Below, piece after piece: positions 3,129 to 62,482 of a stretch of 64,000 nucleotides of DNA (positions are counted from its first letter, which is position 1; the number at the start of each line of letters is the position of its first letter). Origin of the DNA: Prosthecobacter sp. (lineage in GTDB: Bacteria; Verrucomicrobiota; Verrucomicrobiia; Verrucomicrobiales; Verrucomicrobiaceae); contig JAIPJY010000005.1 of NCBI GenBank assembly GCA_021733925.1, positions 62,001 through 126,000 on the forward strand. Direction: 5' to 3'. The notes beneath the pieces were generated by a model, which was not told where the DNA came from, ran no database searches, and saw nothing but the letters and a program-made list of their open reading frames with translations. The position numbers and the translations under genes were made by a program.

Positions 3129-6100
3129 CTACTGCCCTACAGCGGTGGTATTGGTCACCCGAATTCGAGTGAACAGCCTCGTTGCCGGCACACTGGAACT
3201 AACCCGGTAAGTCACACGCTCAGTCTGCCTCGCCACATTGGGTTCTGGCGGAGCGGCAAGCTGTAAAATGACGTTGTCAGCCGACCATTGCACGAGATCG
3301 TAACTCCCTTCGATTTCGTACAGAAGTCCCGGTTCGTTTTTTCTGCGAATGAAGGTAAGCAAGAAGCCATCCAGGACCGTCGTGGTCACAGGCTGGGTGG
3401 AGTCAGCAGGTGAATTCGGGTCCGCATCAAAGGCATAGGACAGCAGCAGACTGCCACCATTGGGCGCAACCCCCCCCCGTCCAGTCCATTGGCGACCTCC
3501 CAGTCATCGGGGATGCCGTTGCTGCGCGTATCGGCTATGCACAACACCGAGACCGTCTGCGCTGCCTGATTCGGAGGCGAGGCATTGTCCCAAGCAGTCA
3601 GGGTCATGATGTTCCATCCTTCAGCAAGAGAGAACGCGGCAGTGAAAGCCCCGCCGCTCCCCAAAGAAACCGGCGATCCATTGACTGAAAAACTGCTGAT
3701 GCCATGAGCATCCGTGATGAAACCATTCAGAGTCATGCTGCTGGCGATCGTCCGCAAAACAGCCCCCCCATAGCCTGCCAGGGGACTACCGAAAATGATG
3801 GCCGGGGGCGTGGCATCTTGCACTGCGGAGATGACGTTGCTCCATGGGCCGAGGATCTCCGTGCCCCCGGACAACCAGTGGGCGCGCACCCGGAACCAGG
3901 TGGTCTGCGCATCGGCCAGACCGGTGATGGTGATTTGGGTGGCATTGATCCAGCCTGAAGACTGGGGCGCGGGAAAATCGCTCGTATGATCCCACTGAAC
4001 CTCGTACGCCGAAGCCCCCTGGGTGGCACTCCAGCTCAGGGGAGCGGAACTGCCCCCGAGGAAGGGAAGCGGTGCGTTCAACACCGGAGCCGGCACAGTC
4101 GAGGGCTTGACATCAAAGGGGCTGCTCTGGCCGCTAAGGGCACCACTGGCCTTGATGACTACATTGGTGCCGCCACCGTTGACAGTGAGCGCCCCGGTCC
4201 AGACACCGCTGGTCAGAGCCGCGGTCGTGGCGGGGGAAACGCTCAGCAAGTTGCCAAAGACCAGACGCATGGCGGGCCGGACACTCAGAAGAGTGGGCGC
4301 CGGGCCGACGGTGCTGGACCAGGTGGCAGGATCAGGCAGCGTGGAGGCCCCGCTTGCCATCATCATGAATCCCGACTGATAGGCACCGACTTCCGTCCGC
4401 GAAACCGTTCCTGCTGCATCGGACATGACTTCGATGATCAAACTTGTGCTGCCATCGCAGAAATACGGCGTGTTGAAGGGGATGAAGAACCAGCCCGTCG
4501 TGTTCGCACTGGCGAAGGAACCGCTGCGCACGGTGGTCCAGCCAGTGGAATTGTCGAACTGCGGTGAGGCTTGAAAACTGCCCAGCGTGGTGGGGCGGAT
4601 GCGAATCGTGTAGTTGGTGAGGGAAAAGCTGGAGCCGAAAGCCCCGTAAAGTTCAATGCCCTGCAGCAATCCACCCGTTCCAATATCCTGAGCAGGCACG
4701 ATCAAGTTCGTTCGGTACTTGGCCTTTGCCGTCCCCACCATCCCGCTGCCGTACGAACCATTGAGAGCGCCTGAAGTCCGTGTGACGGCATCCGCATAGG
4801 CCGAGAGCGACGCCGCAGCACTCGTGCTCGCGACAGGATTGCCGCTGGCATCGGTCACGCGGACGGTGGCGGGGAAAGACGTGCCGCTCGTCTGCGGGCT
4901 GGTGATCGGATCGAAAGTGAGCTGAGCCGCGGGTCCGACGGTAAGGTTGAAGGAGTTGCTGGTGACCGAGATCCCGCGATAAGTGGCCGTGACGGTGATG
5001 CCGGTATCAGCTTTGGCAATCAAGAGGGAGCCGCTCCAGTTGTTGCCAGACCAGGCGGCATTGGGCGTCTGGTTGACCACGGCGATCGTGCCTCCGGCTC
5101 CTTGCGCTGTAAACGTGGGGGCGCCCGTCATTCCAGAGGCTGCGTATCCGTCAAATCTTGCGGCGGCCACGTTCACATAGCTTATCGGGCCAGCAGCCTG
5201 ATTCGAAAAACTGGAAAGGGTCAAAGTGGAGGGGTCGTTGTCATTGACCGTGATCGAGCTGGTGGCACTGAGAAAACCAGAGGCGGAAACAGTCACTGAC
5301 ACCGAAGCCGCCCCATCCGCCACATCGTTTTCAGGAGCGGCCAGATAGATATAGCCCGTGTAGCTACCAGCCGAAATGGTCACTGTCGTGGGAACGGCAA
5401 GGCGTGAAGGATCGCTGCTGGTGACGTTGACAGTAATGTCAGTGGCTGCAGCGCCAGACAGACCCACGTAGAAAAGGCTGCCACCACTGGTCGTCGTGCC
5501 TTCTGTGATGACGCCATAGGACGAAGTCAGCGTCAGTTGCGTACTGCCAGAGTCGTTGACAGTCACGCTGCCCGTGGCGGCTGACCACCCAGGCACGGAC
5601 GCCGTGATGTTCACGGCCAGATTGCCGTCGCTTTTGCCGTTGCTCGTGCTCGTCAGTGCAAAGGTGGTGCTGGAACTCCCGGCGGGAATGGTGACCGTCG
5701 CCGGCACGGAAAGGCGCGTTGCATTCGAGGAAGCTAGATTCACCGTGAGGGAAACTGCGGCTGTGCTCCCGAGACTCACCGTGCCCGTGATCCCGGTACT
5801 CCCTTCTAGGAAGCTGTCAGGCAGGCTCAAAGAGATGCTGGTTGCTTCATCGTCTAAAATCACACAAGTGCCCGAAATCGGAGTCAGGGCCGCACCGGAT
5901 TCTGCCGCAGTGATGGTCACCGTGCGGGCACCGTTGACGATGGAGTCATTGGTGACGGTGATGTCAAACGAGGCGCTGAGCTGCCCGGAAGGGATCACCA
6001 CCGACGCGGGCACCTGCACCAAAGCCGGTGCCGAGGACAGCAACGTCACGGTCAAATCATTCGGCAGCGGCTTCAGCAGCGTCACCGCACCCGCTTGAAC

Positions 6101-9100
6101 CGCCACTCCGGCGTTTTCCGCCAGCTGCGCGGGGACTTGCACCACCAAAGGCGGGTCTGGCACAATGGACGCGGTTGAATTCGTCAGATACAGCTTCCCA
6201 TTGCTGCCATTGGCCGCCAGTCCATAGGTTCCCCAGCGCACCAAGGAAGAGCTGACGGCTGAGGCACCATCCCCGAATCCAATGGAACCCTTTGCTGCGA
6301 AAGTCAGGCTGTCAAAGGCGGCAATGCCTCCCGCATTCTGAACGTAGAGCCGAACATTGCTGGGATCAGGTTCGGAGCAGTGGCCCGTCCCCCCCGCCTT
6401 CAGCACTCCTCCAGTGACCGCATCCACCACCACGCCACTGGAGCCATAAATGCGGCCATTGGCATATTTGATGGCTGAGCCATTGGAATAGTCGGATGAC
6501 TTCGAGGAAACGCTGACGCTGAGCGAGCCCATACCCCCAACCATGAACTCATAGACAGGACTGGTCCCCCCTTTCACCCCGTAAACATGTCCAGGAGTGC
6601 CGGCTGGACACAGAGCATTCACGCCGCCTGTAAGGACCGAGCTGTCCACGGCGAGTAGCACGCCATTCTGCAATGCAATCAACTGGGACGGGCTGTTACT
6701 GCCAATATAAGCCACCAAGAGCGTCTTTGAATCGGTTCCCAAAGGGCACAAATCTGTGACAGTCGGCAACCCCGAAAATGAGCCATTCGGACACAGCCAG
6801 GCTGCTTCGCGTGAGCGTGAACTCAGGGTCCATTTTTCGATCATTCCCGTATAGCCCTTGCTGATGTAGAGGGACTGTCGGTCATCCGTGAGGCGCATGT
6901 GGGTGGGATTTCCCGGGGCATCAAACAGCGGAGTGACGGCGGCGCTGCTGGGGTCAATGGCCACCACCATGTTGGCAAAGGTGGCCGACTTCGCCCCTAC
7001 AAGGGCATAGAGCTGGTCGGAGACCGGATCATGAACGACGTCCAAGATGGTCAGCGCAATCGTCCGCACCGAAGATGTCGTGGGCGTCACGGTGGCGGCG
7101 GCATAGGCGGAATTGTTCGCCGGATTGGAATCGTTGGAGGAAGTCACCGTCGCCGTATTGCCAAAACTTCCCGCGCTGGCGGCCGTGCCGGAGATCTGCA
7201 CCGTGCACCGTGCTCCTGGTGCCAGCGTGCCCAATGCCACATCGATCTGGGCACCATGGACGACCGGAGTTCCCTGCGAGCTGGACACGCCGCTGATGAC
7301 CACGGATGGGTTGAGCAGGCTCGAAAGCGTGACGTTCTTCGCGGGATTCGGGCTGGTATTTCGCACCGTGACTGTGTAGTTCAGCGGCTGGCCTGTCCCT
7401 GCTTGTTCTGGAGTGGCCAGCTGCTCCACCTGCAAATCCGCCCCCTCCCAGGACGGCACCAAGGGAGTGCTCACCGCCAGAATCTGTGTGCCCGTGCGGA
7501 ATGCCAGACCATGCGCCCCCCAGCGCAGCAACTGCCCGGTCGGCGCGCCGGTAAAGGCAGGCAAATCAACCACCCCCACGCGGTTATACTGATAGGTGTC
7601 ATAAGCCCATAGTTGGAAACTCGTGCCATTCGACCCCACCGCGTAAATTCTCGCCAAGTTGCTCTCTGGCACCGCGCTGGTCGCTCGCACCGGAATCTGA
7701 CCGGTCACCGCCACCTGGTTCGGATCCAACACATAGGTCGTGGTGCCTCCTGCAATGGCGAGAAGTTTCCCATCGCTGGCGCTCTGCCCGCCAGCATTGG
7801 GCATCGAGTAACTCGCGGGCGAGGATGCCAGATGCAATCCATCTGCAAGGAGGGAAAAAAACTGCAAGCTGGCGGTATACCCGGAGAGAACGCCGTAAAA
7901 ACTGCCCGAATTCGCTCCAGGAATGACCCGAATATCGTTAAATATTGGATTGGCCACAGGACGGGCCACTCCGGCATCGTACACGGTTTGGTTCACCATC
8001 ACCGACATCGGCCTGCCCGGCAGGGCCAGCAGTTGCTTCACCAGGGTATTGCCCGGCATGTTGAAGGTCTCCGCCGGGACACGAGTTGCCATAGGCACCC
8101 GGCGGACACTGTAGCCTCCGTTCACCCCCACATAGAGCTGTGAGCCATCGTCTGACAACGCCATGACTCCCGCGTAAGAGGGATCCACCACGATGGGAGC
8201 ATCCTGAACACCATTCACCGGATTGATGGGAATGATGGTCCCGGAAGAGGTACTCACATACAGCCGGCCGCGGAAGGCGTCATAGACCATGTCATTGTTG
8301 CTCAAATTGACCTGCACCGGTGCGGTGGGCTGGACGACGTTGAAAATGTTGGACGCGCCTGAAAGCGCCATCCCCCACGCCTGGACTGTCAGCCTCCAAG
8401 CCCCCGGGGTCGCGATGCTGATAGGGCTACGCCAGACTCCTTGGGTCATGAGGAACGAATAGGGGACGACGGGGGTTGTCGTCGTCGAACCATCGTCCGC
8501 ATTAAGCCAGAAGTTGTTGCTGAAGCCGGAAGCCACCTCGCCGTTAATATCCAGCGCCGTGATCTGCACCGCGAAGGGCTGCGAGGCGTATTGGGTCGGC
8601 CCGGTCAGAGTGAAGCCAATGCTGGCGGGATTGCCGTCCGCCACCCGGAGGGACGCCGTCGTCGTCGCCATGCCGTTGGCAGTCGCGGTAAAAGTCACCG
8701 TGCGCCTGCCTTGCGTTTCGTAATCGCTGTAGGGCGTGATGGTGAAGGTGCCGGTGGTGGAGCCTGAATCGATGAACACGCTGCCCGCCACGGCCACGCC
8801 CGGATCGGAACTCGTCAGAGTAACAATGACCGGAGAACTGCCTGCTGGCCGGTTGAGACGGACAAACCCGGTCACTCCGCTGTCGCCTTCCGAAACCAGT
8901 TCGGGAAGCACAATGCTCATGTCCGCCGAAGTGTCGCCCAGCACCGTCACCGGCTTCACATCCCCGGTCCAGCCGCCGACTGCGGCGCTCACCTGCACGA
9001 CCGCATCCGCTTGCAGCACCGTGCTGCGTGGAAAGTGAACGGTAAAACTCGCCGAGGTCTGCCCTGCTGGAATCGTCACCATTGCGGGCACATTGAGTCG

Positions 9101-11995
9101 GGCAGGATCGCTCGAAACAAGCGGCACCTGCACATCCACCGCAGGCGCGGCAGAGACCGCGACACTTCCCGTGGCGGGCGGTCCTCCCGCACGAGCCGAA
9201 CTGGGAAGAGACAGCGTAAGCGTGGCCGTTTCATCATCGTTGACGATCACCGTCACTGGCACCCCGAGGTATCCCGAGGATCTGGCAGCGAGGGTGACGC
9301 TGGGCGAGCCATCAAGCAGGGCATTGTTGACCACTGTCAGCGGCACCTGGACCTGGCTCGTGCCAGCAGGCACAGACAGCGACGCGGGCACGCTGACACG
9401 GGAGGGCACGCTGGAGGTGAACTGCAGCGTCGTCGCAGTCGTGGTCGCTGGCGTCAGGCGCAGGGTGGCCTGCACTGTCGCCGGACCGGCCTCGTTCAAG
9501 GTGGCCACGGGATCGAATTTCAACCCCTGAATGGGCTGCCCGAGAATCTCGATGTCGTCGATGTTCCAGCCTGATTGCGGATCCGCCCCGTTCAAGTTCC
9601 GCGCAATCCACGTGATGTAGATGGCCGGATGATGATCCGCCAGCGCGCTGATGTCCACATAGTGGTCCACCCAGCCGGAGTCATGGATCGCTGCCGTTTC
9701 CACCCACACAATGTTCTGCCTCGGATTCGCTGGGTCAGTGCTGATGGCGATTGAGGCACTGGCAAACGGCGGGCGGTCGGTGTTCAGCCAGCGCTTAAAA
9801 TGGAGGCGGGTGTTGATCAATCCGAACAAATCAATTTTCTGCGTGGTCAGCAAGGAGTCGTCATTGATGTTACCCGCATAGTTTCCCGCTGGACTGTCGG
9901 TGAACACATTCGGTCCCGTGGCTCCGCTGACGGGATCTGGATAACCCAGAGGGCTGCTGCCACCACCACCAATCGGCTGGGCAAAAGCCCACCCTCCTGT
10001 GCGAGTCCAGGAAGCACCGGGATCTGAATCAAGCGGAAACCGGTAAGCAACTGTGGCAAGCACGTCGAGAGTCACCGACATCGTCTGCGAGGCGTTCAAT
10101 CTCTGGTCCAGCAGCGTCAGCGTGCCGGTTTGCAGTCCGATGGGCAGCGCACTGGCGCTGCTGTTCACATTGAGTGTCACATCCGTGGATGTGCCTGGGG
10201 CAAGAGTGCCGCTGGTGGCGCTCAAGTTCAGCCACGAGGCCGTGCTGGCGATGCTCCACCCAGTGGAGGCCGCTGAATTGTTCACGATGTGAAGCGTGGA
10301 CGAGGCATTCACAAAAGGTCCGCCGGGAGGCCCGCGCGCATCCAATCCACCGCTCCAATCCACCCGCTGCACCGAGAGCAGCGCCTTGTTGACGTTCAAC
10401 CGCCCGCCGGAGGCGCACATGCTGGCCAGAGCGGGAAGCGCATCCACATTTTGCATGACAGCCTGCTTGACCTGCTGCGCCGTCAGCAAAGGCCGGTAGG
10501 ACTTGAGCAACGCACAGGCGCCCGTCACCATGGGAGTGGACATGGAGGTGCCGCTGAGCTGCTGATATGCGCCCCCAGGCATGGTGCTCAGAATGTTTAC
10601 CCCCGGTGCGGCCAGATCCACCATCGAAGTACCGCGGTTCGAAAAACTGGCGAGCGCATCGTTTTGATCTGTGGCAGCTACCGTGATCTGCACCGGATTG
10701 CGATAAAACGCCGGTGTCGGTGCGAAGGATGAACCGATGGTGGTGCCATCGTTGCCCGCTGCTCCGACAAACAAGATTCCGGCACTGCAACTTGCGTCCA
10801 CGATCTCCTGCAGCGTTTGAGAAGTTGCGTAACTCTGCCAGGAGTTGTTGGTGATCGCCACCTTCATGAGCGTGGCATAAGCCAGGCCTTCGGACAGGTC
10901 TGAGGACGTGCCGTTGCTTTGGGTGTCGAAGCACTTCACCGGCAAAAGCTTCACCTGCCAGCACACTCCCGAGACGCCGGTGAGGTTGTTTCCAGTCGCG
11001 CCGATGATTCCTGCGACATGTGTGCCATGCCCCTGCGTCGAGTCATCCTGCGGATCGGCGTCATTGTTCACAAAATCCCACCCGCGCACGTCATTGGCGT
11101 ATCCATTGTGATCGTTGTCTGTGCTGTTGCCGGCCACCTCGCCCGGATTGGAATAGATGTTGGCCGCCAGGTCGGGGTGCGTGTAATCGATGCCGCTGTC
11201 GATCACCGCCACAACGACATTGCTGGATCCGGGGTGCGTGTCCCATGCCGCCGTGGCGCTGATGTCCGCTCCGGAAGTTCCTCCTGTCTGGCCGGTGTTG
11301 CTCAGGGCCCATTGCTGCGCAAATTGCGGATCGTTGGGTGTCACGGCAGCATGCACCAAATAGTCCGGTTCGGCGATATGAACGAGTTGTGTTTGCTGCA
11401 TCAAGGCCATCCCGGTGAAAACCGTGTCCAGCCCTTGGTAAGGAAATTCAATGATCCATATCCCGCTCAGCGGCTGCTGCTGCCTTACCACGCCTCCCAT
11501 TGCCTGCACTCTGGCCCTGAAGTCCTGATCCAGCACCCCCTGCACCGGCTTGACTAGAACGTGATCCGCCACCATGGCCACCTGCCGCATGAGCCTCGTC
11601 GGCTGGCCTTGGTCATCCGCAGCGAAGACTTCCTCCAAGCGCAGCAGCGGATATTTGAACGGAGCTCTGATGATCCGCGCCCGCCGCCACCAGCCATCCC
11701 CGGCAGGCTCCATCGGTGAAACTTCCACCTCCGCAGCGCCCCTCCACCGGTCAGCGACCTGCGCTGCTCCCACTTTTGGGCTGGGTGACTCCGGGTTTGG
11801 CGGAATGAACGACGACGACCACCGTTGTTTTTCCCCAGGCTGCGTGGTGGCTGATTTCACCCTATCCAAATCCAGCCTGTCGCTGCCCCACCAGTGCAGG
11901 CCAGCTAAACACAGCCAAACAACTGCAATTATACCTAATAAATACTTAAGCAAAGGCCACAACCTGGTCAATATATGGCATAGTGAATTGAACAT
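3129..11995 (-). CDS. Giant secreted subtilisin-like multidomain protein, frame broken near the 3' end
   Basis: As sequenced, the frame from ATG 11995 stops at 3386 after 2869 residues. The last 27 residues look like out-of-frame text that follows a run of nine G (3470-3478). Adding one G joins it to the open frame ending at 3129 and gives 2955 residues with a sensible end ([14 protein letters not shown]...). Domains by eye: membrane anchor or signal 14-33; subtilase S8 about 225-545 with Asp266 (VIDSGID), His323 (GHGTHVAG), Asn415 (GAAGNDG) and Ser484 (SGTSMSTP); BACON-like about 546-648; jelly-roll-like 650-818; several Calx-beta-like repeats; two propeller-like regions around one DUF11 repeat; more Calx-beta-like repeats; FN3; and a GIPDDWE calcium-type motif. 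It is probably a surface or secreted protease/adhesin. It is divergent from dnaK. Confidence 0.8.
3470..3478 (-). repeat. Homopolymer of nine G (minus strand) at the frame break
   Basis: Nine C on the plus strand, read as GAC-G9-TTG by the giant subtilase gene. Upstream of the run the frame reads [13 protein letters not shown]. Downstream the plausible protein continues only if the run holds ten G (or seven). It is either a sequencing slip, a slippage hotspot or a true mutation. Confidence 0.9.
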
Positions 11996-12320: not shown

Positions 12321-14309
<1,989 letters not shown>

Positions 14310-53705: not shown

Positions 53706-55985
53706 TCAGGACCACAGCAACTGCGTTGCACCCTCAGCCCAGATGGCGGTGAGGGTCCCCGTCTGATGCCGGGGATGCGCCAGCCGCCATTTGGCCAGAG
53801 GAGTTACCACGAGACGTTCCAGCGCACGCTGGAGCGGACGGGCACCGAAACGGTGGTCGTAGCCGTCCACGACAAGCTTTTCAAGAAGCGCGGCGTCCCA
53901 CACCAGCTTCACTCCGGCAGCAGCCAGTCCTTCGCGTTCTGAGAGTTCGTGCAGCTCCTTCAACGCGATTTCCCGGACATGCTCCTTGGTCAGCGGATCG
54001 AAGGTGACGACAGCATCCAGGCGGTTGAAAAACTCAGGTCGGAAGAATTTTTTAACGGCAGTCTCAAAACCGGGTGCGACATTTTCAGTACCAAAGCCCA
54101 TCGCATCTTTGGTGCTCGCACCCAGATTGGAGGTCATGATGATGATCGCACTGCGGAAGTCCGTCACCCGGCCAAAACGATCGGTGATCCGACCTTCATC
54201 GAGCAAGCCCAGCAGCACGTCATAAACATCCGCAGCGGCTTTTTCGACCTCATCAAACAACAGCACGCAGAAAGGCTGACGACGGACCTTTTGAATCCAT
54301 GCGGCTGCATCTCCATCGGGTGCATGCAGCAGTCGGTTCGCCGCATTCCAGTCGCCATACTCGCTCATGTCCAGCCGAACGAGCCGTTCCTTTTCGGCTC
54401 CAGCACCGAAGCAAAACTCCGCCATGGCGCAAGCGAGCGCCGTTTTGCCCACTCCCGTGGGTCCGCAGAACAGCAGCACGCCCTGAGGTCGCGCGGGATC
54501 GGTCATGCCCGCCTTGATGCTGGTGATGACACGTGCTGCGGCATCCACGGCACCGACTTGGCCGATGATCTGCCGGGCCAGCGTGGCCTGCACTTGTGAA
54601 AGAGGCAGCGGCATTTCATCTCGCAGCAGCAGCTCTGGCAGACCGGTCTGCTGGATGAACAGCGCCATGATGTCGTCCGCTGAAACCTGGCGTGACGCCA
54701 CAGGCCGGCGCCCTGCCTGTTCCGCCAGTTTGCGAATGAAAGCCGAGGCCGGGCCTGGAAACGCCGCATACGGCTGGAAGCGTCGGAACAGTCGATGCAC
54801 CAAAGCCACGCTGCCGGGTGCAAATTCGATCCTGCCGGAGGTCGAACAGGCATGAACCACCCGCTCAAGCACCGAGCAGGCCTCGCGTTCATCGAAAGGT
54901 GGCACATGAATGATCTGAAACACATCGAGCAGGCCGGGCATCAGCCTGCGGCAGGCGTCCAGCTCCGCAGGTGTGGCCTCGGCGGTCATGTGCAGCTCGC
55001 GGCGTTGCAGATAAGGCAGCAGGAAGGCTCCCACGCTGTCATTGGCCTCAGCGCCGCCCACGCGCAGCAGTTCCAGCAGGTTCTCCACGCACAAGACGCC
55101 TTCGATTTCACTCAGGCGTTTGATGAATTCTTCACAGCGCTCCTCCCATTGACCGAGATACTTCATGCCGGCGATCACGCGCGCCCCGCTGCCCCGCCAG
55201 CAGCGCCAGGTCCGCATCGATTTGTCGCCATCTTCATCCGTGCTCAGCCTTGCCATGCGACGCGCTGCATCGGTGATGATCGTGCTCTTGCCGCAACCGG
55301 GTTCGCCAACGAGCAGCACGTTGGCGCGCTCGTGCTGCAGTTTGTTGAGCAAGGCCGTCACCGGACCTTCGCGGCCATAGGCGGCAGAGTGGTGGCCACG
55401 CTCATGCAGCAGCGGGTCCGCCATGGTGAAAAGCACCTTCATGTCCTCACGCTCGCGCATCGGCGTCTGGCGTGTTGAGCTGTGAACGTCACGCACGCTC
55501 AGCTTGTCCAGCCAGGCGCCCATCGGTGGCAGTTGAAGCGTCAGGTCAGCGGGCGTCTGCCCAGTGAGATGGTCCTTCACATAGTGCCGCACCAGTTCCT
55601 TGTACTGTGCCTCGTTGTGAAAATGAAAACGCAGCTCCAAACCGGGGACTTCACACACGAGCGTGCCGTTCTCCGCTTTTCCCGTCACGCAGGGTACGCG
55701 CAAGGTGCTGGTATCCGGACTCGGGATGAGGCGGTGCCCGGTTTCATCCTTGTATTGAGCCCGCACATCCACCTTCACCTCCCGCAGTTGCGGATCGAAC
55801 AGCTCGGCTCCGAGGCTCCACGATTCATGCTCCGCCCGCCAGTCCAGCGCGTCACTCAACTGCCGCAGTACTTCCTGTGAAGAACCGGCGTAGGCGGTGG
55901 CGCTGCGGTAATCCCCGACCAGCAGACCCGTGACACCGCCGCTGGCATCGCGCCAGAGCAAAACAGGATAGACGTGAGTGGCCAT
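53706..55985 (-). CDS. HSP100/Clp-like double AAA+ ATPase, third gene of the operon
   Basis: 759 residues. An unfamiliar N-terminal domain (about 1-165) replaces the Clp N repeats. AAA1: Walker A GEPGCGKST (Lys233), pore-loop-like IAGMKYLGQWEER, and Walker B VLCVEN (Glu301-Asn302 in place of Asp-Glu). AAA2: Walker A GPTGVGKTA (Lys514), Walker B LLFDEVEKA, sensor TSNLG, FRPEFFNRLD and sensor-2 GARPLQR. The usual GYVG pore loop of AAA2 is missing. MGF (629-631) sits at the ClpP-loop position. There is no C-terminal extension. It starts 3 bases after the preceding gene ends. Confidence 0.88.
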   Translation of the reverse strand: MATHVYPVLLWRDASGGVTGLLVGDYRSATAYAGSSQEVLRQLSDALDWRAEHESWSLGAELFDPQLREVKVDVRAQYKDETGHRLIPSPDTSTLRVPCVTGKAENGTLVCEVPGLELRFHFHNEAQYKELVRHYVKDHLTGQTPADLTLQLPPMGAWLDKLSVRDVHSSTRQTPMREREDMKVLFTMADPLLHERGHHSAAYGREGPVTALLNKLQHERANVLLVGEPGCGKSTIITDAARRMARLSTDEDGDKSMRTWRCWRGSGARVIAGMKYLGQWEERCEEFIKRLSEIEGVLCVENLLELLRVGGAEANDSVGAFLLPYLQRRELHMTAEATPAELDACRRLMPGLLDVFQIIHVPPFDEREACSVLERVVHACSTSGRIEFAPGSVALVHRLFRRFQPYAAFPGPASAFIRKLAEQAGRRPVASRQVSADDIMALFIQQTGLPELLLRDEMPLPLSQVQATLARQIIGQVGAVDAAARVITSIKAGMTDPARPQGVLLFCGPTGVGKTALACAMAEFCFGAGAEKERLVRLDMSEYGDWNAANRLLHAPDGDAAAWIQKVRRQPFCVLLFDEVEKAAADVYDVLLGLLDEGRITDRFGRVTDFRSAIIIMTSNLGASTKDAMGFGTENVAPGFETAVKKFFRPEFFNRLDAVVTFDPLTKEHVREIALKELHELSEREGLAAAGVKLVWDAALLEKLVVDGYDHRFGARPLQRALERLVVTPLAKWRLAHPRHQTGTLTAIWAEGATQLLWS

Positions 55986-55988
55986 GGG

Positions 55989-58900
55989 TTAGGATTCAGT
56001 CGGAGGTTGCAGCCATTCCACCAGCTCTGCGGGCAGCGGCAGCGACGGCAGATGGAAAGCGCGAAATGTGTCCGCATCTGCGTCTGGCGCCAGCAGCAGA
56101 CCCGTGCGGTGGCAGAGCAGTCGCTGGTCACGCAGCAGCGTCATGGTCAGAGATGAATCCTGCGTCGGTTCGGCTGTGCTACAAACCCGGTCTTCCGCCG
56201 CACTCAGTGCAAGGCTCACTTCCAAAGTGTGCAGCGTGCCGTCATCGTCATGCAGCAGCCAGGTTCCAGCCAGAGGCTCCAAGAGGCGCATGAGATTGAG
56301 CCCGATGGCCCGCAGACCAAACTGCAGCGGCGCAGAGGAACCGGATGCCTCGTGAATGTCCTGCACCGCAGTTCCCCCATGACCGGAGAGCAGCGCCATC
56401 ACTTGATGCTGGATCGAAGACGCCTGGCTTTCAGCGAAGGACCCTGAGGCACAAATTGTCAGATCCACCGACTCGTTCTGACTGGACTCTGCGGCCATCA
56501 GCTCCAGCAGCGACAGCTCACGCAACGCCGCAAACAACGGCGTCTCGACGATGTCGTGATCTGGCATATCCACATCGGTAAGCAGGCTTTCATGCAGCTC
56601 CGCCTCGCGCGCTCGGTCAAAGCGTGGATTGCCGCTGTAATACTGCCGCACCAGAATCTTCACCGGCCTTGCGCGGGAGACAGACATCACCCTGCCTTGT
56701 CGGGCAGGCTTCTGGTGCAAACTCGCCTCTGCGGCGTTGAGCAGGCGTTCCACCCGCTGCACCTGCTCGCGGCAGTGGTAGTAGCGTTCCTGCACGGCGG
56801 TCAGCGTGCCGAGCTCCACCGTGCCTTGCGGCGCCTGCTGTTCGACTTGCTCGATGAGCCGGTCCAGCGCGTCATTGGCTGCATCCAGCACGGTGCCTTT
56901 GTCCGCTTCTTCACGTGAGAGACGCTCGGGCCAGAACACGCTGCGTGCTGAGGGGCGCAGGGCCTGCGTGTGCAGCGAGAAGCGGTCTGCCACACATCGC
57001 AGTTCAATCCGCAGCGGAATTCCGGGCGTGCGCGCCGCCAGATCGGCCGCCAGCGGCTGCGCGACCTCGCGCTCGATCACACGCTTCAAAGCCCGTGCAC
57101 CAAGTTGCGGGTGATGCCCCAGTTCCACCAGCTTGTCCGCCGCTGCGCTCGTAAAATGGAACAGGCACTGCCGCTGGCGCAGACCATCCCGCTTCAGCAC
57201 CTCGGCGAGCAGACGGCTCGCGATGGCGGCGAGATGTTCGCGCGTCAGCTCCCGGAAAGGCAGCACGCGGTCGAGACGATTGAAAAACTCGGGCCGGAAA
57301 AATTTCTCTGCAGCTTTGACGTAGGTTGCTTCGGCCTCCGCTTCTTGCTGGCCGCCAAAGCCGATGCGAGATCCGGCCTCCCGCACACCGAGGTTCGACG
57401 TGAGCAAAATCACGGTGCTGGTGAAATCTGCCACGCGGCCCAGCGCATCGCTCAGGCGTCCCTCGTCCAGCACACCCAGCAGCATGTCGAAGACCTCCGG
57501 CGCCGCCTTCTCGATCTCATCAAAGAGCACCACAGAAAACGGCTGCCGCCGCACTGCACCCGTCAGCAGGCCGTCGGGCTGCGCCGGTGTTCCGGTAAGA
57601 CGCAGCACCGCACCCGAGTCCACCATCTCATTCATGTCAAAGCGCAGCAGCCTGTCGGCGTGGCCAAACAGATGCTGAGCCAGAGCTTTGGCGCACTGCG
57701 TCTTGCCCACACCAGTCGGTCCCAGCAACAGGAAGGCCGCCAGTGGTCGGCGCGGATCGTTCAGCCGTGCTTTCAGTTGCAGCAGCACATCGGCAAACGC
57801 ATGCAGCACGGCATCCTGCCCTGACACCTGTTTTTGCAAGGCTTGAACGATGTCTGCGCGATCAAGCGACTGAGACTGGTCAATCATCGCCAGCTGCAGG
57901 CCGCTGCGCTCACGGAATTCCTCCAGCGCCGCTGCGCGCTCGCAGGATTGGTTGGCATGCTTCACCGCCAGCCGGTGCAGAAAGCCTGCGGCCTTGCCAG
58001 GAAAGGCCGCGTCACTCACGAAACGCCGATGCAGTTCATACGCCGCTGGCACGACATCGAGCGCAAAAGTGCAGTCATGCTCGCGCTCCATCTCGCGGGC
58101 CACGCTCACCAGAATGCGCAGCGTGTCCGCTTCTCCGGGTTCCGCCACCGTCACCACATGAAACATCTCCGCCAGCGTTCGATCCCGCTCCCGCAGCACG
58201 CGCCACGACTCAGGAGTGATCTCTGCCAGCAGGCGCAGGGAGCGCTTTTCCAGCCGCGGCTTGAGCAGTTGCGCCACATTCAAATCACTGTTCGCGCTCT
58301 TCCCGGCGGTGAAAAGTCCGGGCAGGTCTTCGAGGTAGAGCACCGCATCGCTGCGCTCCACATGATCACAGATGGCCTGCACGCGGTGCTGCCACTGACC
58401 GACATGGGACATGCCGCTGATCAGCCGCATGGGTGACACCAGCCAGATGTTCCGCCGCCGTGTCCAGGCTTTGTCCGCCATCATGCGCCACACCAGTTCC
58501 TGCACGATGGCCGTCTTTCCCACCTGGCGGGGGCCCACCAGCAGAATCGCCCGCTTGTCCGGCAGGCGCAGCCAGCGCTCCAAACCGGCCACCTCGGCAT
58601 CGCGTCCGATCGCCCGTGGCAGGTCGTCAGGATAAAGCGAGTTCAGCAGCCGCCCCACCTTGCGCAACTCCGCCGCGCCATCCGGTTTCTGATCGTCCCC
58701 GCCGAAGATGGAGCTGCGCTTGACCGGCTTGGCCTTGAGCGCATTCAAGGCCGGTTTCACCTTCACTTCGATCACGGTGAGTCGCCCCTTGCCTGCGGTA
58801 GGCAGGGCATGGTCATCCAGATCTACCAGTTCACCGTTTTTTTCCAGGCTGCGAAAATGCTGGGTGAGCACCTCGACCGCGCGTTCATTCAGGCGCTGAT

Positions 58901-59267
58901 TTTTGTGCACCTCAAAGTGCAGCTCTGGCAGCTTCGGTGTGAACCACATCTGGCGTCCCAGCGCTTCATATCCCGCCATGAAAAAGCGCCGGTGGTGAGA
59001 TCCGCTCTTCAGCTCGATGCGCAGCTCCAGCGTTGTGCTGTCATAGTCTGGTAGAAGGCACCAGCGTGCCAGCTCGTCATGCCGCGTCTCACGAGACAGC
59101 TCCAGCAGCTTGGTTTGCAGATCCGCCTGCACCTGGCTCAGCGCCCGTTGCAGTTTCTCCGACTTCCGCACCGGATCTTCCTGCTGCAAGGGGCGGACCA
59201 CAAACAGCGGCGCCTCACCGCTGCCACGCGGATGCTCTTCAATGTAGATGGGCAGCGTGATGGTCAT
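55989..59267 (-). CDS. HSP100/Clp-like double AAA+ ATPase with C-terminal extension, second gene
   Basis: 1092 residues. N-terminal domain about 1-200. AAA1: Walker A GPRQVGKTA (Lys251) and Walker B VLYLED (Glu313-Asp314, order swapped from DE). AAA2: Walker A GPTGVGKTQ (Lys522), Walker B VVLFDEIEKA, sensor TSNLG, FRPEFFNR and sensor-2 GARALKR. No ClpB-type middle coiled coil and no GYVG loop in AAA2. IGF (635-637) sits at the ClpP-loop position. After about residue 780 comes a helical linker, then a domain (about 932-1022) that may be a diverged release-factor central domain. The start overlaps the first gene's stop (ATGA). Confidence 0.88.
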   Translation of the reverse strand: MTITLPIYIEEHPRGSGEAPLFVVRPLQQEDPVRKSEKLQRALSQVQADLQTKLLELSRETRHDELARWCLLPDYDSTTLELRIELKSGSHHRRFFMAGYEALGRQMWFTPKLPELHFEVHKNQRLNERAVEVLTQHFRSLEKNGELVDLDDHALPTAGKGRLTVIEVKVKPALNALKAKPVKRSSIFGGDDQKPDGAAELRKVGRLLNSLYPDDLPRAIGRDAEVAGLERWLRLPDKRAILLVGPRQVGKTAIVQELVWRMMADKAWTRRRNIWLVSPMRLISGMSHVGQWQHRVQAICDHVERSDAVLYLEDLPGLFTAGKSANSDLNVAQLLKPRLEKRSLRLLAEITPESWRVLRERDRTLAEMFHVVTVAEPGEADTLRILVSVAREMEREHDCTFALDVVPAAYELHRRFVSDAAFPGKAAGFLHRLAVKHANQSCERAAALEEFRERSGLQLAMIDQSQSLDRADIVQALQKQVSGQDAVLHAFADVLLQLKARLNDPRRPLAAFLLLGPTGVGKTQCAKALAQHLFGHADRLLRFDMNEMVDSGAVLRLTGTPAQPDGLLTGAVRRQPFSVVLFDEIEKAAPEVFDMLLGVLDEGRLSDALGRVADFTSTVILLTSNLGVREAGSRIGFGGQQEAEAEATYVKAAEKFFRPEFFNRLDRVLPFRELTREHLAAIASRLLAEVLKRDGLRQRQCLFHFTSAAADKLVELGHHPQLGARALKRVIEREVAQPLAADLAARTPGIPLRIELRCVADRFSLHTQALRPSARSVFWPERLSREEADKGTVLDAANDALDRLIEQVEQQAPQGTVELGTLTAVQERYYHCREQVQRVERLLNAAEASLHQKPARQGRVMSVSRARPVKILVRQYYSGNPRFDRAREAELHESLLTDVDMPDHDIVETPLFAALRELSLLELMAAESSQNESVDLTICASGSFAESQASSIQHQVMALLSGHGGTAVQDIHEASGSSAPLQFGLRAIGLNLMRLLEPLAGTWLLHDDDGTLHTLEVSLALSAAEDRVCSTAEPTQDSSLTMTLLRDQRLLCHRTGLLLAPDADADTFRAFHLPSLPLPAELVEWLQPPTES

Positions 59268-62200
59268 GGCATTTCCTCCACGGCCCGCTCCAGGCGTGAC
59301 TCAATGAGACGGCGCATCGCTGCCTCCATCCCGGACCGGGTCCATTCAATGTCACCTATCACATTGTCGGAGACCTTTTGTTCGTCGGCATTGAAGATGC
59401 GCCGCGGTTTGATCGCCTTGTCGGTGATCATTCCCGCACGATGGATGCCTGCGGGCGGCACGTATTCAGCGAGGTTGATCCCACCGGCCTCCACAAGGCA
59501 GAGACGCTGTACACCTTTGCTCAGATGCTTGTGCAGGCCCGTTTCGTTCATGAAGCGTGGATGAAACAGGTCGCCGCGCAGATGCATGATGGCTCCCACC
59601 CAGCCGCCGGGCGGTTTGGCCATGGGTTCAGCAGGTTTCTTGGGTGGTTCGCGGCGGGGCTTGCTCTCTGCCAGATCACCTCCGGCAGGTGGCAGTACAA
59701 ATTCAAATCCCACGAGCTTTCCGCCCAGCGCACTCGCATGCTCAAGGTAGAGGCTGATGATCTGCTGCATCCAGTCACGGTGTTCACTGTAAACGGCAAC
59801 CACGATGTCATCCGGCTGTGAAAAGCTGAAGCGGAAAAGATCGTGCTGCAGTTTCACCCGCTGGTTCTGGATCTCAGCCAGGCTTGATTGCAGGGCCGCT
59901 GCATCAAAACCTCCTGCCAGATGAAAGGTGCCGAGCGTCTCGGTCTCCAGGGCGTCCATGTCTTGCGTGAGTGCGCTCAGCTCGGCCAGCACACGCCGCA
60001 GGTGCCCCAGCCGTGCCAGTCGCGACTGCTCTTCTGGACTGAGCCAGCTGCGTTTCGCACTGCGCCGTTCCAGCATGGCCAGCAGCGGTACTTCATTCTC
60101 CAAGGCGGACACCGTGGAGCTGCGCGCCAGCTTTGACAAACGCCGGCGCAATTCCAGCACGGCATCCGCCAGCTTCAGCGCACGCTGCGTGGCGGCCGCG
60201 TCTTCTCCGGCCTGCCTCTGTTTCACATCAATGACGAGCTCATTCCTGACCAAGTTGACGGCAGCCACCAGCGGCTGGCGGTGGCGCACTTCGTTCAGCG
60301 CCTCGGCCAGCGGCACCATCAGCGTGCGTTCCAGGATACGCTTCAGCGGACGTGCTCCGTATTTTGGATCATGGCCCCGCGCTGCCAGATGTTCTTCCAC
60401 ACCGGGGCCGAGCCGCAGATCGACATCACGCAGGCGAATGCCGTCACGTTGCCGCAGGAGATCCAGATGCCGACGCGTGACGCGCAGCATGAGGTCAAGA
60501 CTCAACGCATGAAAGCGCAGGATGGCTCCAAGCCGGTTGTAAATCTCCGGGCGCAGAAACTGCCGCACCGCCTCGGCGAAGTGGCCGCCGCCATCCTGTT
60601 CCTCGCCTGTGGCGAAGCCCATGGCGCCACGCTGAAACTCACGCGCACCAAGATTTGAAGTCATGATGATCACCGTGTTGCAAAAGTCCGCCGCCCGTCC
60701 GGCGGCGTCTGTGAGACGGCCGTCGCCGAGGATTTGCAGCAGCAGGTCAAAGAAGGCCGGATCCGCCTTCTCGAACTCATCAAACAGCAGCACGCTGAAG
60801 GGTTGTTCGCGTATCCGTGCGGTGAGCAATCCCTCCGCCTGACCGGTGCCGCCGATGAGGCGCTGAACCGAGATGGAGTCGCTGAACTCACTTAAATCAA
60901 AGCGTGCCAGCCGGTTCGCACTGCCGAACAAAAACTCCGCCAGTGACTTCGCCAGCTCCGTTTTTCCGGTGCCAGTCGGCCCCACAAACAAAAACGAGCC
61001 AAGCGGCTGCTTGGGGCGGTTCAACCGCGCTTTGATCGTCGCCAGCAGATCAAGCATGGCCTCCACGGCCTCCGGCTGGCCGATCACCCGCTGCGTGAAC
61101 CAAATCCGTGTGGCATCCAGATCGAGCGGCAGCTCATCTTTGAGCAGCACCTCCGGCAGACCTGTTTCGCGAGTGAACGCGGCTGTGACTTGTTCGAGGG
61201 TGAGATGGGTTTTTTGATCTGCAGGCTGTTCAGTGACCAGGGTGGTCAGAAAGCGGATCGGACGCCCTGGATTGGCCGAATAGGTGGCGTACCGCCGATG
61301 CAGGCGATGCAGCCAGTCCAGCGCCGGCGCTGACAACGCATGATCGCTGTCCTTCCGTGCCAGATGGTGAAAGACGCGCTCCAGAATCTGTCTTGTGACT
61401 GCGGGCGCAGGCTCCTGCACACGGACGTGCATGAACGCACTCGCGATGTGCGGATCGCGCCGCTCAATGATCGCCAGCTGCTCCGGTGTGCATTCCGCGA
61501 TGGCCAGCAGCTCGCCGCGCGCGATCCAAGGCCGTAAAAAACTGGCGATGCTCTGGGCATTCGCACTGTGCTGCCCGACTTCCATCAACTCGACCAGGTT
61601 GCCGAGATGCAGCACCGCCTTCGTCTTGGCGGCTTCGCGGCAAAGCTCCCGGCACTGCTCCTGCCACTGCCCAAAGCCGGATTGTCCCGCGATGAGCATG
61701 GAGCCGCTCGTGCTCCAGATGTTGCTGTCGGCGGAGCGTGCCAGCTCGCGTACGGCCGCAGTCTTGCCCACACCCGGCGGGCCGATCAGCAGCACGCTGG
61801 CAGGCTGCCGCGCCTTCAGGGACTCGCGCATCAAATGCAGCGTGGCTTCCAAGGCAAAACCCGGCGTCGTGTTGTGCCGTGTGAGCTTTTGCGCCACTTC
61901 CCTGAGCACAGACTTGGTCTTTTTCTCGCCTTCTTTGGCCTCCTCCAGTTCACGTGGGGTTTGGATGTTCGCCGTGACGTCGAGTTCATCCACACGCAGC
62001 GCCTTCACGCACTGGGAGAGCGCCAGTCTTTTCAACGACACCTGCTTCACACGATCCACCAGCGTGAGCCGTACATGCGCCTCCACTCGTGCGGCGATCT
62101 GCTCCGGCTTGGCCGCAATGACCTGCACCCCGAGCACAGGAACGAACGCCAGATGCAGATCGTCCGACTCTGCCCAGGTGATGTAATCAAACCGCAGTTC

Positions 62201-62482
62201 CACAGGCTCCTTCCAGTCCGCACGTTTCTTCGCGGGTTCGAGCGTGAAAGTGATCTGTTCCACCCGCTCATCCTTGCCGGTCATGCGACGATGCAACGAA
62301 GCAGCAGGTACCGCCTCGGCATCTCCGAGCAGCATGGCAACCTTTGAGCGCAATCCCACTGCGGCACGCCCTGCTTTATCACCGAGACTCGACACGGTGG
62401 GAAAGCCATGACACTCCACCAGCTGCAGGTCGTCACCTAGGCTGAGAGTGACGGCATGGACATGAAACGTCTGGGCAGGCAT
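59264..62482 (-). CDS. HSP100/Clp-like double AAA+ ATPase fused to a release-factor-like domain, first gene
   Basis: 1072 residues from ATG 62482; an earlier ATG at 62527 adds no similar sequence. N-terminal domain about 1-200. AAA1: Walker A GPPGVGKTA (Lys240), but Walker B reads AVLHLGNL with Gly294-Asn295 in place of Asp-Glu. AAA2 is intact: GPTGTGKTE (Lys507), LLFDEFEKA, TSNLG, RPEIYNR and GARPLKR. A helical linker (about 765-880) leads to a region (about 890-1000) resembling the central domain of class-I release factors, with WMQQIISLYLEHA and GDLFHPRFMNETGLHKHLS. No GGQ motif. MGF is at 621-623. Confidence 0.87.
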   Translation of the reverse strand: MPAQTFHVHAVTLSLGDDLQLVECHGFPTVSSLGDKAGRAAVGLRSKVAMLLGDAEAVPAASLHRRMTGKDERVEQITFTLEPAKKRADWKEPVELRFDYITWAESDDLHLAFVPVLGVQVIAAKPEQIAARVEAHVRLTLVDRVKQVSLKRLALSQCVKALRVDELDVTANIQTPRELEEAKEGEKKTKSVLREVAQKLTRHNTTPGFALEATLHLMRESLKARQPASVLLIGPPGVGKTAAVRELARSADSNIWSTSGSMLIAGQSGFGQWQEQCRELCREAAKTKAVLHLGNLVELMEVGQHSANAQSIASFLRPWIARGELLAIAECTPEQLAIIERRDPHIASAFMHVRVQEPAPAVTRQILERVFHHLARKDSDHALSAPALDWLHRLHRRYATYSANPGRPIRFLTTLVTEQPADQKTHLTLEQVTAAFTRETGLPEVLLKDELPLDLDATRIWFTQRVIGQPEAVEAMLDLLATIKARLNRPKQPLGSFLFVGPTGTGKTELAKSLAEFLFGSANRLARFDLSEFSDSISVQRLIGGTGQAEGLLTARIREQPFSVLLFDEFEKADPAFFDLLLQILGDGRLTDAAGRAADFCNTVIIMTSNLGAREFQRGAMGFATGEEQDGGGHFAEAVRQFLRPEIYNRLGAILRFHALSLDLMLRVTRRHLDLLRQRDGIRLRDVDLRLGPGVEEHLAARGHDPKYGARPLKRILERTLMVPLAEALNEVRHRQPLVAAVNLVRNELVIDVKQRQAGEDAAATQRALKLADAVLELRRRLSKLARSSTVSALENEVPLLAMLERRSAKRSWLSPEEQSRLARLGHLRRVLAELSALTQDMDALETETLGTFHLAGGFDAAALQSSLAEIQNQRVKLQHDLFRFSFSQPDDIVVAVYSEHRDWMQQIISLYLEHASALGGKLVGFEFVLPPAGGDLAESKPRREPPKKPAEPMAKPPGGWVGAIMHLRGDLFHPRFMNETGLHKHLSKGVQRLCLVEAGGINLAEYVPPAGIHRAGMITDKAIKPRRIFNADEQKVSDNVIGDIEWTRSGMEAAMRRLIESRLERAVEEMP

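Follow-up and report, generated by a model that had tools for sequence, protein, structure and literature searches.

Three consecutive minus-strand genes of a Prosthecobacter sp. contig (JAIPJY010000005.1), here called A, B and C, encode large HSP100-type proteins that, as judged from their sequences, are three co-inherited paralogues, and one or more, probably two, of these three subunits end in a disarmed copy of a release factor. The genes lie in a 64,000-nucleotide stretch of DNA, the window, to which all coordinates refer. The reading proposed, with somewhat less than even confidence, is that A, B and C form an obligate hetero-oligomeric HSP100 machine, whose arms, derived from release factor 2 (RF2), may dock on the ribosomal A site, with remodelling taking place there; we infer the ring stoichiometry, the ribosome binding and the remodelling outcome alike.

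Arrangement and co-inheritance of the three genes

Gene A (59264..62482, minus strand) encodes 1072 residues, comprising a HicB-like N-terminal domain, a degenerate first ATPase module (D1), an active-type second module (D2) and an RF2-like C-terminal domain lacking the GGQ domain. Gene B (55989..59267, minus strand; 1092 residues) has an N-terminal domain related to that of C, a degenerate D1, an active-type D2 and a distant RF2-like C-terminal domain, and gene C (53706..55985, minus strand; 759 residues) combines a HicB-like N-terminal domain with a degenerate D1 and an active-type D2, the RF2-like domain being absent. They follow each other in tandem in the order A-B-C, the stop of A overlapping the start of B by four bases (ATGA, 59264..59267, minus strand) and a 3-base gap separating B from C. 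This is the layout that a first-pass annotation of the window had described, three consecutive double-AAA+ genes with that overlap and that gap, and it holds, as each protein has two AAA+ modules, a D1-like P-loop module and D2, with the qualification that the hydrolysis residues of D1 are changed. The length of A is counted from an ATG, with which the majority of homologues align, and not from the TTG 45 bases further out, where the list of open reading frames begins.

A search with A returned nine loci with long matches, namely six planctomycete records, one from Verrucomicrobia and two from Acidobacteriota, the latter being a Blastocatellia metagenome-assembled genome (MAG) and Sulfidibacter corallicola. 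As seen from the reading frames, most homologous loci keep the A-B-C order, at roughly 34-49% identity and over several phyla, a recurrence that goes beyond chance. Of 13 A/B pairs, comprising the window and 12 homologous pairs in which the starts nearest to the window's were picked, 11 retain the 4-base overlap; at L068:11183-11803 (genome G009), the spacing between B and C is about 620 bases instead of 3. Phylum surveys, in which two candidates per genome were scored and some C carriers were already known from the A search, found A in 3/387 genomes of the window's phylum, its own genome counted, and C in 23/392 planctomycete and 6/396 Acidobacteriota genomes.

Co-occurrence in other genomes had been set beforehand by the first-pass annotation as a test of its proposal, and it was found: at strict thresholds, among 38 genomes selected for C, A was present in 36 (E 1e-110), B in 34 (E 1e-115) and all three in 34. 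In 26 of these 34 full-set genomes, A, B and C share a contig and a strand and follow each other in order, with gaps below 2 kb; in two, the triple ends at contig breaks (G438 and G714), and in the other six, the genes lie apart (G043, G435, G891, G1185, G523 and G575). Retention of the genes after such dispersal is a stronger argument for one function than linkage. In addition, the pairwise divergences of A, B and C correlate, with r of 0.957 (153 pairs), 0.947 (171) and 0.949 (136), of which shared host descent alone explains part. The earlier suggestion of one hetero-oligomeric machine is partly supported, because of this matched divergence (r 0.95-0.96) and the retention after dispersal. 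Divergent triples occur in a Lujinxingiaceae MAG (Bradymonadales) and in a MAG titled uncultured proteobacterium, one of them contiguous (L116:9629-18631) and the other with C 3 kb off (L118:4396-16746). Both genomes also hold a single-gene relative. Regarding mobile elements, 0/1725 matching plasmid records and 0/159 matching phage records reach 80% coverage, the listed ones matching the ATPase part at about 30-35%, and the triple as phage or plasmid cargo is ruled out on that ground.

The ATPase modules and their relation to Clp proteins

In A, B and C, D2 matches Pfam PF07724 (AAA_2) and PF10431 (the ClpB-type small domain) far over cut-off, and D1 gives weaker P-loop matches; what marks a D2 of the HSP100/Clp superfamily, the catalytic motifs together with the PF10431 small domain in the window's A, B and C, is present. 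The first-pass annotation had proposed a profile search, and this gave ClpB and ClpA as the top NCBIfam names, with scores between one quarter and one third of their cut-offs (294-344 bits against 1232 for ClpB and 274-330 against 993 for ClpA), with no ClpC model among the matches listed. For ClpV, which had been called unlikely, the scores of 212-274 bits against a cut-off of 885 lead to its rejection. The Clp_N domain is not among the Pfam families listed for B (all 18), for A (best 25 of 34) or for C (best 25 of 33).

A tree of 91 ATPase cores separates A, B, C and their single-gene relatives from 15 Clp-type rows with a support of 100; placement of each inside an ordinary Clp clade, which the first-pass annotation had named as refuting its proposal, was not observed. 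Those 15 rows are proteins from the window's genome, its phylum and seven loci of the A search, named ClpA, ClpB or ClpC by the author's reading, named model Clp proteins not being among the rows. Within the family, B forms one group (99), C one group (100) and A one group except for L151 (97 without it). The seven loci examined out of L041-L065 of the A search (L041, L043, L047, L051, L059, L063 and L065) have an intact D1 Walker B and cluster with Clp, and GYVG is present in six of them, the exception being L063.

Motif states were counted on the same rows as the tree, 76 of the family and 15 of Clp type. In D1, Walker A is present in 75/76 family rows, whereas the Walker-B DE is found in 0/76, compared to 15/15 Clp rows, and the arginine finger RRF in 1/76, compared to 15/15. 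In D2, Walker A, Walker B, sensor 1, the arginine finger and sensor 2 are each present in 76/76; the pore-loop motif G[YFW]VG occurs in 0/76 family rows against 14/15 Clp rows, and the ClpP-type hydrophobic-Gly-Phe/Leu loop, between sensor 1 and the arginine finger, in 71/76 and 13/15, respectively. Considering the window's own proteins (all minus strand), D1 of A (61223..61909) keeps Walker A, has HLGNL as Walker B, lacks the arginine finger and bears SGFG as pore loop, while its D2 (60278..61120) has the full catalytic set, a shortened pore loop without GYVG and an MGF loop. D1 of B (57918..58628) also keeps Walker A and lacks the arginine finger, with LED at Walker B (FDD in most relatives) and SHVG as pore loop, followed by a D2 (57021..57860) with an intact catalytic set, a shortened pore loop and an IGF loop. 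D1 of C (54711..55397) keeps Walker A, with ENL at Walker B and KYLG as pore loop, and its D2 (53766..54602) has an intact catalytic set, a shortened pore loop and an MGF loop. The roles of these motifs are established in the AAA+ field, the pore-loop residue being the one by which Clp proteins pull the chain. D1 should bind ATP but not hydrolyse it, and D2 should hydrolyse ATP, yet without the chain-pulling residue of Clp; since the hydrolysis residues of D1 are changed, one working motor per protein is expected, not two.

Release-factor-like and N-terminal domains

The C-terminal domain of A (59267..60277, minus strand; residues 736-1072) has no GGQ domain, and the tail, of 340 residues, has at its end the kind of pattern that marks the PCRF region in class-I release factors. 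When A tails were compared by hhalign, whose E-values here apply to single comparisons, with a profile of 11 RF2 of relatives, the probability was 97.5 (E 5.4e-12, 166 columns). As negative controls, the N-terminal domain of A, that of C and the complete C protein were compared with the RF2 profile, and the probabilities were 0.1, 0.2 and 1.2. A profile of 23 A tails searched against solved-structure sequences (hmmsearch) returned RF2 in all the top 19 rows, with a best E of 2.8e-9, and the match to solved RF2 consists of two stretches that flank the catalytic GGQ domain, with that domain absent between them. The window's A tail shares 16-24% identity with those of A proteins beyond its close relatives, and across phyla one can still recognise the C-terminal tail of RF2 and, in the PCRF region, a core of Gly and Glu-Gly-His. 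As read from these alignments, the A arm is derived from RF2, with the GGQ domain gone. RF1 and RF2 themselves are encoded by genes of their own in the window's genome, and these carry GGQ together with VPAT or SPF.

The C-terminal domain of B (55992..57020, minus strand; residues 750-1092) is related to those of A and of the single-gene relatives, as B tails match A tails at a probability of 96.9 (E 1.3e-10) and the single-gene RF2-like tails at 96.6 (E 5e-10). No release-factor match was found for B tails among solved-structure sequences, and no PCRF in Pfam. It is likely, but not settled, that the B tail is a more diverged copy of the RF2-like domain. As A and B carry tails and C does not, the ring, if hetero-oligomeric, would mix armed and unarmed subunits.

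Most of the remaining 32 planctomycete genomes in the C survey gave no strong match other than an apparently single-gene HSP100 relative. Proteins from 25 of the 32 (L181-L200, L141 and L144-L147) and L073, from the window's order, make up the RF2-tailed set. Among 20 of these proteins, 16 match the RF2 profile directly, over profile positions 11-352, with a best E of 3.3e-34 that holds for the search of those 20 proteins only. Six aligned tails match RF2 at 99.8 (E 1e-28, 306 columns), better than RF1 (99.2, E 1.5e-19), and RF2 also leads among solved-structure sequences (E 1.3e-38). Pfam PCRF is over cut-off in 4/4 of the single-gene tails tested, and one of the four, that of L073, was also picked up, over cut-off, by the PCRF search made for RF1 and RF2 of relatives. 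All 26 tails keep the W of the FW motif (RF2 domain 1), and SPF is missing from 25/25 that reach its aligned position; GGQ is found in 0/17 that retain its region, eight lack this region and one tail is truncated by the end of its contig. The planctomycete single-gene relatives, by these comparisons, carry a nearly full-length RF2 without GGQ and SPF. Four of the RF2-tailed proteins were read closely, and three of them have an N-terminus resembling HEAT repeats. Seven neighbours of the planctomycete forms, at five loci, have no common theme, four of them without a Pfam match.

Other single-gene relatives, from Myxococcales and Lujinxingia records (L030-L040), have no RF2-like tail, and their N-terminus is HEAT-repeat-like by the author's reading. 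They adjoin the gene of RsmG, a 16S rRNA methyltransferase (three were tested by Pfam), which is the sole RsmG gene over cut-off in 5/5 genomes, and this adjacency suggests a second, weaker link to the ribosome. The window's own assembly, 93% complete, gave no RsmG match.

At the opposite end of the proteins (all minus strand), the N-terminal domain of A (61913..62482, about residues 1-190) is made of two strand-rich repeats in the secondary structure of its AlphaFold2 (AF2) model, which has a predicted local distance difference test (pLDDT) of 80.5 and a predicted template modelling score (pTM) of 0.50. Both this domain (hhalign probability 96.5, E 7.9e-10) and that of B (58668..59267, about residues 1-200; 93.1, E 3.2e-7) are related to the N-terminal domain of C (55491..55985), which has a HicB-like fold. 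Structural similarity of the N-terminal domain to the HicB fold is above background, and its assignment as HicB-like in fold is supported by the predicted structure. Against Pfam, 20 C N-terminal domains gave no Clp_N and weak, unrelated matches (best E 0.034); in a fold search with the whole A model, AAA rows fill the list, so this search says nothing on the N- or C-terminal domains. The first-pass annotation had overlooked the non-catalytic D1, the lost pore-loop motif of D2, the HicB-like N-terminal domains and the C-terminal domains derived from a release factor.

Proposed machine, competing explanations and known systems

In the machine proposed here, A, B and C would assemble into one ring of HSP100 type, probably hexameric and containing all three, in which D1 would hold ATP without hydrolysis, acting as a ring for assembly and substrate contact, and D2 would provide the ATP-driven motion. 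The tandem HicB-like N-terminal domains may stand in for the Clp N-domain as a platform for clients or adaptors. RF2 occupies the A site of the ribosome, and the A arm, together with the more diverged B arm, without the elements for peptide release and stop-codon reading, may dock the machine there; ATP-driven remodelling could then clear or dismantle ribosomes that have stalled or are blocked by a factor, or the nascent products of these ribosomes. A wider claim, put forward tentatively and on balance doubtful, is that this might be a new class of bacterial ribosome-quality-control machine, in which a captured, disarmed release factor probes the A site and recruits an AAA+ motor to ribosomes that are stalled or blocked; it would be a bacterial, covalently joined equivalent of the eukaryotic Cdc48-Vms1, related to the planctomycete single-gene forms with a nearly complete RF2.

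HSP100 rings are mostly regarded as homo-oligomeric threading machines. The family would split the usual HSP100 functions between three obligate subunits, a non-catalytic D1 ring, a D2 motor without the threading motif and arms taken from a translation factor, and, if the arms bind ribosomes, it would represent an unrecognised bacterial AAA+ route for ribosome rescue or disassembly. The planctomycete single-gene form offers a simple test protein and records how the release factor was captured. A literature search, with subscription journals and preprints outside its scope, found no HSP100-release-factor fusion or such a triple described in the portions of text covered, those of PMC7159879 included.

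Several observations weigh against a machine acting at the A site. Pfam picks up PCRF in only 2/23 A tails (best E 0.0012), neither of them the window's, and B tails match RF2 directly only at a weak hhalign probability of 42.6 (E 2.6e-4), their relation to it being indirect. C ends 19 residues past the aligned end of D2, without an arm. Having lost SPF and GGQ, the arm might now serve a structural purpose away from the ribosome. The tail-less relatives also have an aldehyde dehydrogenase gene upstream in common, so their RsmG neighbours could be chance synteny, and RNase III, three genes away, is the only RNA-related gene among the scanned neighbours in the window.

In an unlikely alternative, the triple is one hetero-oligomeric HSP100 general remodeller and the RF2-like arms are purely structural or protein-binding, with no role at the ribosome. 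It is favoured by the missing GGQ in 17/17 single-gene tails that keep the region and the missing SPF in 25/25 that reach it, as well as by the absent GGQ domain of A and the descent of its tail to 16-24% identity outside close relatives; however, the PCRF Gly and Glu-Gly-His core and the RF2 C-terminal tail persist across phyla, and the RsmG link of the tail-less relatives also speaks for the ribosome. The hydrophobic-Gly-Phe loops raise a different and improbable alternative, a ClpP-coupled unfoldase, in which the ring would pass substrates to ClpP through these loops and the RF2-like arm would select the substrate. Besides the presence of the ClpP-type loop in 71/76 rows, the loop occurs in the protein of the window's genome read as ClpC and is absent from the one read as ClpB, and full-length-type ClpP (E 1e-60 or better) is encoded in 11/12 triple-bearing genomes. 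On the other hand, the GYVG of D2 is absent in 76/76, the window's 93%-complete genome shows ClpP only as an incomplete family match (57/182 positions; 29.4 bits, which is above the cut-off of the family), and the large C-terminal arms would be expected near the ClpP-facing side of D2.

The patchy distribution, 3/387, 23/392 and 6/396 genomes in three phyla, could instead point to a biological-conflict machine, anti-phage or anti-toxin, answering ribosome damage or translation shut-off, as lineages of this kind are rich in conflict systems. The PADLOC families PDC-M37B and DolB match the D2 core, with best E of 2.7e-29 and 3.3e-25, but these matches lie on D2 (that of DolB on C also on the small domain), where any HSP100 would be expected to match, and both families are rejected as an identity for the triple. 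Together with the lack of phage (0/159) and plasmid (0/1725) matching records at 80% coverage and the congruent trees, which suggest stable inheritance, this makes a conflict role hard to credit, though not negligible. That the genes are ordinary ClpA, ClpB, ClpC or ClpV duplicates with solo roles deserves scarcely any credence: ClpB and ClpA are indeed the top NCBIfam names, but the scores are far under the cut-offs, no Clp_N is among the listed Pfam matches, and the degenerate D1, the altered D2 pore loop and the position outside the Clp-type rows (support 100) refute it, by tree and motif counts alike.

As for the surroundings, the immediate neighbours of the triple, a sodium:solute symporter and a cytochrome bd subunit gene, have no visible relation to it, and flanking genes are rarely common beyond close relatives, being shared by the window and L066 and by L027 and L029. 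The window also holds an HSP70 (DnaK-type) gene (12366-14309), about 40 kb from the triple, and a gene for a 2869-residue subtilase-family protein with a DUF11 domain (3386-11995).

Compared to known systems, the triple resembles ClpA and ClpC in its two AAA+ modules, its D2 small domain, its hydrophobic-Gly-Phe loop and the absence of the M-domain, which ClpA also lacks. It differs from them by having no Clp N-domain found, a non-hydrolytic D1, no GYVG, three obligate paralogues and an RF2-like arm. The disaggregase ClpB/Hsp104 is similar in the sequence and fold of D2; however, the triple has no M-domain, as indicated by a single continuous ClpA match, has the hydrophobic-Gly-Phe loop and forms its own clade. 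ClpV/TssH is likewise an HSP100 double ATPase, from which the triple is separated by its scores far under the ClpV cut-off and by its symporter and cytochrome bd flanks. The RF2 (PrfB) features preserved in the family are domain 1 with the FW motif (in the single-gene tails), the PCRF core and the C-terminal tail, whereas its copy is fused to an HSP100, has lost SPF and has either lost GGQ or had that domain deleted. Unlike the HicB antitoxin, the HicB-like domains of the family are in tandem, on an ATPase and without a significant Pfam match. Pex1/Pex6 of eukaryotes is a hetero-hexameric double-ring AAA with an inactive D1, from a different AAA clade and with a different cargo. In eukaryotic ribosome quality control, as presented in the main text of PMC6514570, which contains no words starting with Clp or HSP100, the AAA+ ATPase Cdc48 pairs with the release-factor-like Vms1. 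The triple would share with Cdc48-Vms1 the pairing of an AAA+ ATPase with a release-factor-like protein; however, Vms1 is an interacting partner with an unrelated aeRF1-type domain (PMC6514570), whereas the arm of the triple appears to be a bacterial RF2 derivative borne on the same chain as the motor.

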